Positions 1 through 52,322 of a stretch of DNA of 64,000 bases are shown here, one piece after another (position 1 is the first letter of the stretch; each line of letters begins with the position of its first letter). The notes under the pieces were generated by a model. It did not search any database and was not told the origin of the DNA. It worked only from the letters and a program-made list of their open reading frames with translations. The stretch comes from an uncultured Eisenbergiella sp. (GTDB lineage Bacteria > Bacillota > Clostridia > Lachnospirales > Lachnospiraceae): assembly GCA_947631815.1 (NCBI GenBank), contig CANRMT010000002.1, forward strand, positions 1 to 64,000. The letters run 5' to 3'. The translations under genes were made by a program, and so were the position numbers.

Positions 1-1208
1 GCCTCCATGGAAAGCTCCCGGATGCGCTCGTGCAGCTCCTGCCGGTCTCCGCCCGCCTTCACGGCGTCCATCATGATATTTTCCGTCGCCATGAAGGGGA
101 GCTCGCTGCGCAGTCGCTTTTCGATGACCTTCGGATAGACCACCAGGCCGTCCACCACGTTCATGCACAGATCCAGAATGCCGTCCACCGCCAGAAACCC
201 CTCCGCGATGGAAAGGCGCTTGTTGGCCGAATCGTCCAGCGTCCGTTCGAACCACTGGGTCGCAGACGTGATGGCCGGATTCAGCGCATCCACCATCACA
301 TAGCGGGACAGGGACGCGATGCGCTCGGAACGCATGGGGTTCCTCTTATAGGCCATGGCCGAGGACCCGATCTGATTCTTTTCGAAGGGCTCCTCCACCT
401 CCTTCAGATGCTGGAGCAGACGGATATCGTTGGACATCTTGTGCGCGCTGGCCGCGATCCCCGCCAGCACGTTCATCACGCGGGTGTCCACCTTGCGGGA
501 ATAGGTCTGCCCGGAAACCGGATAACAGCCGGAAAAGCCCATTTTCTCCGCGATCATCGGATCCAGCCGCTCCACCTTCTCCTGATCTCCCGCGAAAAGC
601 TCCAGGAAAGAAGCCTGGGTCCCCGTGGTCCCCTTGGAGCCCAGCAGCTTCAAAGAGCCCAGCACATATTCCAGATCGCAGAAATCCATGTAAAACTCCT
701 GCATCCAGAGCGTGGCGCGCTTTCCCACCGTGGTGGGCTGGGCGGGCTGGAAATGGGTGAAAGCCAGCGTGGGCTGGGCCTTCTGCGCCTGTGCGAAATC
801 GGAGAGCTCCGCCAGCACGTTCAAAAGCTTTTTGCGCACCAGCCGCAGCGCCTCCGCCATGATGATGATATCCGTGTTATCCCCCACATAACAGGAGGTA
901 GCCCCCAGATGGATGATGCCCTTCGCCTTGGGGCACTGCACCCCGTAGGCGTACACATGGCTCATGACGTCGTGACGCACTTCCTTCTCCCGCGCCTTCG
1001 CCACGTCATAGTTGATGTCCTCCGCATGCGCCTTCAGCTCGTCGATCTGTTCCTGAGTGATGGGAAGCCCCAGCTCCTTTTCCGTCTCCGCCAGCGCGAT
1101 CCACAGCCGCCGCCAGGTCCGGAACTTCATATCCTGTGAAAAAATATACTGCATCTGCCGGCTGGCATAGCGCTCCGACAGGGGGCTGATATATCTGTCC
1201 GTATTCAT
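1..1208 (-). CDS. purB: Adenylosuccinate lyase, truncated at window edge
   Basis: Reverse-strand reading from ATG at 1208 gives [47 protein letters not shown]...[23 protein letters not shown], with the PurB signature SSAMPYKRNP-like motif. Runs off the window start, so it is absent from the ORF track. Confidence 0.93.
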
Positions 1209-1302: not shown

Positions 1303-1527
1303 GGCCCTCCCGCAGAAAACGTCCCGCACGGAAAGCGCTGCCGGGGCCGGTGGACATTCCATTTTCCCGGACCGTTAGAAAAACGCCGGTGCTTAACAAG
1401 GCGATCCCTCTGGGCGAAGCCGAGTTTAGCACCGCTGCGTTTTTCTCGAGCGCAAGCGTGTCCGGAAAAGGAATGTCCACCGGCCCCGGCGGCGCTTTCC
1501 CTGCGGGACGTTTCCTGTGGGAGGGCC
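1303..1527 (+). repeat. Long imperfect palindrome, copy 1 of a conserved-core hairpin family; core 1352-1478
   Basis: Arms 1303-1360 and 1470-1527 are complementary with about 4 mismatches in 58; the 127 bp core is nearly identical to 3206-3332. Confidence 0.9.
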
Positions 1528-1596: not shown

Positions 1597-3144
1597 ATGA
1601 AAAAAAACGCGCTGATCAAAGGGACCTTCATACTGACCGCTGCGGGGCTTCTCAGCCGCTGTATCGGCTTTTTTTACCGGATCTTCCTCTCCCGCATGTT
1701 CGGGGCGGAGGGCATGGGCATCTACGAACTCATCAACCCGGTGCTGGCGCTGACCTTCGCCCTGTGCACCTCCGGCATCCAGAGCGCCGTCTCCAAATTT
1801 GTGGCCGCTCTGCCCCAGAACCGCCCGGAGGGACAGCTTCATATCCTGAAGACGGGCCTCGCCTTTTCCGGCGGTCTGTCCGTCCTCTGCGCTCTGTTCG
1901 TCTATCGCCGCGCGGACTTCATCGCCGCCGCGCTCCTCTCGGAGCCGCGCTGTGCGCCCCTTCTGCGCATTGCGGCGCTCTCCTTCCCCGCCGCGGCCGT
2001 CCATTCCTGCATCAACGGCTATTTTTACGGCATCAAAAAAGCGGGGCTTCCCGCCTTCTGCCAACTGTTTGAGCAGTGCTTCCGGGTGGGCAGCGTTTTC
2101 CTGTTCTGGAACTATGCGCAGGCGCATCAGGTCACCTTTTCCATTACGGCGGCCGCGGTCGGCCTGGTCATCGGCGAATTCGCGTCCATGCTGGCGGCCG
2201 TTCCCGTCACCTTCCTGCATTTTACCAAAAGAATGTCCGCCAGCCAGGCCGGGCGCTCCCTGCCGCACGCCGAAATCTCCGGCTTTTTCGGCCATGAACG
2301 CGGTGCTTCCAGAATCGGTGGCTTCCCGGACCGCGGTCCCGCTCACACCGGCGGCTTCGATTCCAACCGCAGTGCCTCCCGCATTGACAGGTTCGCCCCT
2401 GACCGCGGTGCCTCCCGCATCGGCAGCTTCCCGGACCGCGGTCCCGCTCGCAATGGCAGCTTCGGCCCTGTCCGCAATGCTTCCCGATCCGTTGTCCCGC
2501 AGATCCTGCTGTTTGCCGCGCCTCTCTCCGCCAACCGGGTCTTCCTGCACCTGCTGGGCGCTATGGAATCGGCCCGCATCCCCGTCAGCCTCCAGCTCTT
2601 CGGCTATACGCCCAAACAGGCCATTTCCCTCTACGGCATTTTCACCGGCATGGCGATGACCTGCATCCTGTTTCCCACGGCGCTGACCAACTCCGTCTCT
2701 GTTCTGCTCATGCCCCTGATCGCGGAAGCGGACGCCTCCGGGAACCGCCGCGCCATCCGTTCCGCCGTCTTCCGCTGCGTCCGGTACTGCGCGCTGATGG
2801 GCTTTGCCTGCATGGGATTTTTCCTGCTTTCGGGGCCCTTCATCGGCTCCGTCCTCTTTCACAGTGAAACCGCCGGATATTTTATCCGCATCCTGAGCTT
2901 CCTGTGCCCGTTCCTTTACCTGAACACCACGCTGTTTTCCATCCTGAATGGGCTGGGGAAGACCGGCTGCACCTTTCTCGTCAACACCGCGGCCCAGCTG
3001 GTGCGCATCGCTTTCGTTTTCTTCGCCGTCCCGCGTTTCGGACTGCCGGGGCTTCTGAGCGGCATGGTGCTGGCGCATCTGCTCACCACGCTCTGCTGTT
3101 TCCTTTTCCTATCCGGACACCTGAAGCGGACCTCCGGCCCATGA
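1597..3144 (+). CDS. Polysaccharide biosynthesis/MATE-like flippase (SpoVB/MurJ-like)
   Basis: [52 protein letters not shown] is a typical SpoVB/MVF N-terminus; multi-TM. Confidence 0.85.
2299..2490 (+). repeat. Degenerate in-frame tandem repeat (~33-39 bp units) inside the flippase gene
   Basis: Encodes [63 protein letters not shown]. Confidence 0.8.
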
Positions 3145-3403
3145 CCAGCCCCGCGGCCCGGACTCCTCCCCCAGAGGGCCTCCGGCCCAAAGTGTCGCCG
3201 CCCGCGGACATTCCATTTTCCCGGACCGTTAGAAAAACGCCGGTGCTTAACAAGGCGAGCCCTCTGGGCGAAGCCGAGTTTAGCACCGCTGCGTTTTTCT
3301 CGAGCGCGAGCGTGTCCGGAAAAGGAATGTCCGCGGGCGGCGACGCTTTGGGCCGCAGGCTCTCCCCGGTAGGAGCCCGGGCCGCGGGGCTGGTCATGGG
3401 CCG
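3135..3403 (+). repeat. Long imperfect palindrome, copy 2 of the conserved-core hairpin family; core 3206-3332
   Basis: Arms 3135-3214 and 3324-3403 are complementary with about 8 mismatches in 80; the outermost 24 nt are perfect. Confidence 0.9.
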
Positions 3404-3483: not shown

Positions 3484-4515
3484 ATGAGTTTCACTTTTAT
3501 CAATCAGCTTCCCACCCCCGACTCCATCCGGCAGCAGTATCCGGTCCCGGCGGAGTTCGAGCGCCTGAAGGCGGTCCGGGACCGCGAGATCCGGGACGTC
3601 ATCACCGGGAAAAGCGATAAATTTCTGGTCATCATCGGCCCCTGCTCCGCGGACAACGAGGATTCCGTCTGCGACTATATCAGCCGCCTGGCCGGGCTCA
3701 ACGATAAAGTAAAGGACCGCCTGATCCTGATCCCCAGGATCTATACCAACAAGCCCCGCACCACCGGCGACGGCTACAAAGGGATCGTCCACCAGCCAGA
3801 CCCGGAAAAGGGAGAGGACTTCGTAAAAGGGCTGATCGCCATGCGGAAAATGCACATCCGCGCCTTTGAGGAATCCGGCCTGACCGCGGCGGATGAGATG
3901 CTCTACCCCGATAACTGGGGATACGTGTCCGACATCCTCTCCTATGTGGCCATCGGCGCCCGTTCGGTGGAGGATCAGCAGCACCGTCTGACCGTCAGCG
4001 GTTTTGACGTGCCCGCCGGTATGAAGAACCCCACCAGCGGCGATTTCTCCGTCATGCTCAACTCCGTCTACGCCGCCCAGCATCCCCACTCCTTCACCTA
4101 CCGGGGCTGGGAGGTCAGGACCGACGGCAACGAGCTTGCGCACACCGTCCTGCGGGGGGCCACCAACAAATACGGCCGCAATCTCCCAAATTACCACTAC
4201 GAGGATCTGAACACCCTGCTCACGCTGTACAATGAGCGCGACCTGAAAAATCCGGCCTGTATCATCGATTCCAACCACTCCAATTCCAACAAGCAGTTCG
4301 AGCAGCAGGTCCGGATCGTCAAGGAAGTGATGCACAGCCGCAGGCTGAGCGCCGATATCCGTTCCCTGGTGAAGGGCGTCATGGTGGAAAGCTATCTCGT
4401 GGAGGGCTGTCAGAAGGTGGGCGGCGGCGTCTACGGCCAGTCCATCACCGATCCCTGTCTGGGCTGGGAGGCCTCCGAACGGCTCATCTACGATCTGGCG
4501 GAGCTGAACCCGTAA
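3484..4515 (+). CDS. aroF: 3-deoxy-7-phosphoheptulonate (DAHP) synthase, class I
   Basis: IGPCSADNEDSV, PRIYTNKPRTTGDGYKG, GMKNPTSGDFSVML, GGNELAHTVLRG-like and IDSNHSNSNKQ motifs. Confidence 0.95.
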   Translation: MSFTFINQLPTPDSIRQQYPVPAEFERLKAVRDREIRDVITGKSDKFLVIIGPCSADNEDSVCDYISRLAGLNDKVKDRLILIPRIYTNKPRTTGDGYKGIVHQPDPEKGEDFVKGLIAMRKMHIRAFEESGLTAADEMLYPDNWGYVSDILSYVAIGARSVEDQQHRLTVSGFDVPAGMKNPTSGDFSVMLNSVYAAQHPHSFTYRGWEVRTDGNELAHTVLRGATNKYGRNLPNYHYEDLNTLLTLYNERDLKNPACIIDSNHSNSNKQFEQQVRIVKEVMHSRRLSADIRSLVKGVMVESYLVEGCQKVGGGVYGQSITDPCLGWEASERLIYDLAELNP

Positions 4516-52140: not shown

Positions 52141-52322
52141 CCCATCCGGTCAGGGCCCCGGGGAGATACGGTGTGTATGTCAGGCACGCTCTCGCTTCGT
52201 GAAAAACGCAGCGGTACTAGGCTCAGTTTCGCCCGCAGACGGGCTCACTTCGCCAAGGACCGGCGTTTTTCAAGAGCGCTGACATCACACACCGTATCTC
52301 CCCGGGACCCTGACCGGATGGG
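52141..52322 (-). repeat. Long palindrome, copy 3 of the conserved-core hairpin family (core on the minus strand)
   Basis: CCCATCCGGTCAGGGCCCCGGGGAGATACGGTGTGTATGTCAG pairs with CTGACATCACACACCGTATCTCCCCGGGACCCTGACCGGATGGG; inner GAAAAACGC...GCGTTTTTC core. Confidence 0.88.

Follow-up and report, generated by a model that had tools for sequence, protein, structure and literature searches.

Near the start of the 64-kb stretch of DNA analysed here (the window), two long hairpins share a nearly identical middle, while their arms differ from each other and are self-complementary in each copy. The locus raises the question of how arms can be specific to a locus and yet always match themselves. The window is part of a draft genome of 2.75 Mb (G000), and G011 and G009 are relatives of it from the same genus. 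Copy 1 (1303-1527) has arms of 62 nt (1303-1364 and 1466-1527) that are 92% complementary and flank a 101-nt centre, and copy 2 (3135-3403) has arms of 84 nt (3135-3218 and 3320-3403) that are 89% complementary. The conserved core of 127 bp, located at 1352-1478 in copy 1 and at 3206-3332 in copy 2, lies on the minus strand in both and is 98.4% identical between them; in copy 1 it reads, in motif orientation (minus strand), GGACACGCTnnCGCTCG..AAAAACGCAGCGGTGCTAA..AAGCACCGGCGTTTTT..AACGGTCC. Outside the core, the left arm of copy 1 (1303-1351) is locus-specific and common to the G011 ortholog, and the right arm (1479-1527) is its inverted repeat. The corresponding parts of copy 2 are 3135-3205 and 3333-3403. 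The folding z-scores were -15.8 for copy 1 and -20.3 for copy 2, and no shuffled sequence folded as well. Hence, both the very long stem and the near-identical core given in a preliminary description of this DNA were confirmed.

Only three strong inverted repeats were found in the window, namely copies 1 and 2 and a divergent copy 3 on the plus strand at 52141-52322, which has a divergent core (CACGCTCTCGCTTCG / AAGAGCG) and arms of its own. Block-shuffled window sequence contained no inverted repeats of comparable strength. The neighbouring genes were named by reading. Those around copies 1 and 2 are an adenylosuccinate lyase-like gene (purB, 3-1208, minus strand), a gene for a MurJ/polysaccharide-transporter-like membrane protein (1597-3144, plus strand) and a 3-deoxy-7-phosphoheptulonate synthase-like gene (aroF, 3484-4515, plus strand), and copy 3 has a sodium:alanine symporter-like ORF on one side and glmS on the other.

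The element is dispersed and structured, as had been supposed, with 41 core matches in G000 by BLAST. When a covariance model was trained on 25 diverse cores, it found 66 copies in G000, 69 in G011, 26 in G009 and 22 in G006, and it gave zero matches in six other members of the genus. Across the Lachnospiraceae, the element was present in 65 of 150 sampled genera, often with at least 26 copies. A class-wide sample showed it in three of four further Lachnospiraceae genomes and in none of the 144 genomes from other families. Judging by the genomes sampled, the core family is confined to the Lachnospiraceae. Among the carriers with arms found by a pattern scan are Ruminococcus turbiniformis, Lachnoclostridium sp. 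An169, Acetatifactor muris and Clostridium symbiosum; since isolates occur among the carriers, the palindromes are not a MAG artefact. Five pattern-scan matches that were checked in unrelated phyla lacked the paired partner motif or the arms and were taken as chance, and the viral contigs scanned with the core-motif pattern gave no match. In alignment A1, some of the invariance of columns stems from the pattern with which the sequences were fetched. Several MAG contigs terminate inside the element, and contigs of draft genomes end in or beside the palindromes at L008, L038 and L253/L254. In G011, the break between contigs C6 and C69 falls at the element orthologous to L027, and the two contigs have a common inverted end of about 78 bp.

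The arms were self-complementary in all 79 measurable copies of G000, G009 and G011, with lengths of 27-91 bp (median 53), whereas the left flank of one copy paired with the right flank of another over a median of 6 bp. In terms of arm pairing scores, the within-copy minimum was 23 and the cross-copy median 1.5. The main claim of the preliminary description, that arms match themselves and are specific to their locus, thus applies across the genome. The further claim that the arms are of unrelated sequence goes too far. A degenerate inner-arm motif, GCCCCGGCAGAAAGCGCCGCC, found at a variable distance from the core, matched at 15 or more of its 21 positions in 40 of 80 copies; about one copy was expected from shuffled arms, although this excess is partly circular because the motif was picked by eye from the same data. 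In G098 and G063, which represent two other genera, the copies plainly have their inner arms in common, and the outer arms are locus-specific. The flanks at L020 and L090 contain near-tandem repeats of an arm unit (CAGACCCCACAGCAGAACACACCGCCCCCTG) adjoining the element, for which repeated arm copying is possible.

G000 and its sister species have many element sites in common, with flanks that are often 85-97% identical, and the arms are retained at these orthologous sites. The ortholog set consisted of 21 comparisons, in which L041 was used twice; L007/L072, which does not look like an orthologous pair because the arms differ and a single flank aligns, was left out. Both arms had changed at 48 positions, compared with about 10.6 expected from the one-sided rates if the two sides changed independently, and 44 of these 48 two-sided changes were still Watson-Crick pairs. 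There were also 113 one-sided changes, and their occurrence beside the concerted ones indicates that pairing decays and is restored. In 7 of the 21 comparisons the core was inverted relative to the arms and flanks, the inverted cores having an identity of 84-100% when aligned in core orientation, compared with 47-54% in flank orientation. Core inversion was also observed at L019/L150. Identity between orthologs was 98.5% in the core stem blocks and 86% in the outer flanks, and the apical loop was the most variable part (median 81%).

At several loci the arms include inverted copies of native sequence and of gene ends. In copy 2, the outermost 27 bp pair without a mismatch and take in the final 10 nt of the MurJ-like gene (3135-3144, CGGCCCATGA), so that the right arm finishes with this gene end in inverted form (TCATGGGCCG). 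At the same site in G011, the end of the gene is homologous and the arms are different. Likewise, 18 nt of a coding end are present as an inverted copy at L006, and at L019 the inner arms are common to G000 and G009, with an inverted copy of the gene-end GGCTGA on the far side only in G000. At L027 the arms extend 26 nt into both convergent genes and both proteins end in KQKQAAQ*, while the G011 orthologs end in LKRSRAAS* and LKEKMG*. Comparison of these termini suggests that one of the two C-termini was probably replaced by a copy of the other, and it means that the element can alter protein C-termini. At L028/L142, 22 nt of left flank are single at the unoccupied G011 site, and G000 has a second copy, inverted, on the right. 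A possible CGGCAG direct repeat at this site is a candidate target-site duplication that is also explicable by deletion, and unoccupied sites such as this one in G011 may have arisen by deletion and need not show the ancestral state.

We consider it fairly probable that the copies form a family of protein-less foldback elements whose arms are rewritten by polymerase template switching. All copies have in common an asymmetric apical core, about 107-127 nt long, which probably serves as the recognition or structural determinant of spread. During replication, DNA polymerase would switch template within the hairpin and rewrite the long arms repeatedly. Such switching would homogenise both arms, leaving changes on both sides, and would invert the core in place; where it passed the old arm edge, it would produce an inverted copy of the native flank, neighbouring coding ends included. 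Homogenisation, core inversion and flank copying together would make the arms locus-specific yet always self-complementary, and the arms are no fixed terminal repeat. Template switching homogenises the arms of inverted repeats and flips the spacer (PMC8604942), and it makes and keeps stems, with the loop occasionally inverted (PMC8794818). Arm homogenisation, core inversion and stem extension were all three present here, at many loci, and it is from the match of this sequence pattern to the published signature that we infer the cause. Local inverted duplication or template switching had been offered earlier as one origin of the arms, and the concerted change, core inversion and inverted gene ends at orthologous sites argue for it. 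Core inversion could also result from recombination between the arms, which is a poorer explanation of how arms come to extend outwards into native sequence.

Not all sites are accounted for by template switching alone. At murJ/aroF, L019 and L027, the sister species bear elements with differing arms, a sign that elements may have inserted repeatedly, or been replaced as a whole, at preferred gene ends. It is also conceivable, though unlikely, that the arms are a product of insertion: a core bearing no more than one short arm would join the target strand, and snap-back (self-primed) synthesis would copy the flank. If this were true, each insertion would create its own locus-specific palindrome, and a new mode of transposition-coupled inverted duplication would be in use across a bacterial family.

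None of 81 copies fell within a gene. Among copies for which both neighbours had been called, tandem or convergent arrangements predominated, with seven divergent cases that include copy 1, and the core typically lay about one arm length 3' of a stop codon. At tandem positions the core had the direction of the upstream gene in 18 cases and the opposite direction in 21. The distal arm edge was not enriched in T-tracts, since at least three T among the first 6 nt were found in 11 of 73 cases at the far edge and in 11 of 73 on the near side; the copies thus show no excess of the U-tract that directly follows the stem in intrinsic terminators. The random core orientation and the lack of a T-tract excess make a strand-specific cis RNA function unlikely; the asymmetric core motif is nonetheless conserved between genera.

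These results bear on whether the element is a selected structured RNA in 3' UTRs, serving mRNA stabilisation, termination or as a small RNA, with compensatory substitutions keeping the stem. The location 3' of genes, the strong predicted folds, the conserved internal-loop motifs, the stems that covary across genera and the higher identity of the core blocks than of the flanks between orthologs are all consistent with such an RNA. However, its core would not be expected to take either orientation to the upstream gene at random or to flip between sister species, the 113 one-sided arm changes persist, the distal arm edge is not enriched in T-tracts, Rfam has no match, and template switching can likewise produce covariation. 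We therefore regard this explanation as unlikely, and the earlier suggestion of a cis-acting RNA with maintained outer pairing was not supported, as many arms also show uncompensated decay. The covariation of the element would satisfy common tests for functional RNA, which calls for caution in RNA discovery.

Two further explanations concern the origin of the arms. That the core enters pre-existing terminator-like palindromes, so that the arms are old terminator stems, would fit the position of the copies after stop codons and the shorter hairpin at the unoccupied G011 sites L014/L141 and L026/L143. We find it quite improbable nevertheless, given that the window has no other strong inverted repeats, that the spacers of copies 1 and 2 are short and element-free in most relatives, and that the arms contain coding sequence and a motif common to several loci. 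Very improbable, in our judgement, is an ordinary MITE or REP-like element whose common arms have merely diverged: its conserved part would not be the middle with the ends varying, its outer arms would not consist of local sequence with gene ends included, two-sided changes would not so far exceed expectation, and the Y1 transposase is absent from G000 and G009, even though the motif in about half of the copies and the common inner arms of G098 and G063 point in its direction.

The Y1 transposase family PF01797 is missing from G000 (95% complete) and G009 (68% complete), which carry the element, and it is present in G011 and also in G008 and G010, both of which are without the element. This distribution does not fit a mobiliser, and that of reverse transcriptase does not track the element either; no mobilising enzyme was found among these two families. 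Rfam gave no match at gathering score in the 64-kb window and chance-level matches only at E<=5, leaving a repeat family that is abundant in the Lachnospiraceae (65 of the 150 genera sampled) without an Rfam match.

Among known systems, the element resembles the REP, BIME and REPIN sequences associated with RAYT (TnpA_REP, Y1), which are small, non-coding, intergenic palindromes 3' of genes in tens to hundreds of copies. It differs from them in that core and arms together measure about 180-300 bp, the arms are locus-specific, and no Y1_Tnp protein is encoded in G000 or G009. MITEs, including the RU-type repeats of enterobacteria (PMC2759123), are likewise short, dispersed, non-autonomous and hairpin-capable, but the element has no shared terminal inverted repeats (6 bp across copies compared with 53 bp within them) and is conserved in the middle. 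Quasipalindromes made by template switching share arm homogenisation, stem creation and inversion of the spacer or loop; the cases published in PMC8604942 and PMC8794818 are isolated and mostly short, whereas this family is dispersed over many loci, with arms of 27-91 bp and a spacer of at least about 100 bp. Bacterial stem-loop sequence families (PMC2267715) are repeated intergenic stem-loops too, a likeness drawn here from their general description. No description of the element was found in the open-access literature, most subscription papers being outside the search. The copies are best described as a new dispersed family of hairpin elements with unusual arm dynamics, resembling palindromes of REP or MITE type minus the RAYT gene and the shared termini.

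A second long-hairpin family was observed in G006, at L111:1815-2187 and in the purB-murJ spacer (L132), with a different core (GAAATTCC..GGAACGTTCCTG..AGTCCGGAACG..GGAATTTCCC); its arms are again unlike at the two loci. The purB-murJ spacers of G001 and G007 (L134 and L135) are element-free and have an inserted gene of about 1.1 kb that looks like a tRNA 2-thiouridylase. Within the window, the MurJ-like ORF contains an in-frame tandem duplication at 2287-2486, made up of two units of about 105 nt that are 79% alike, with repeats of GASRIGxFPDRG type.
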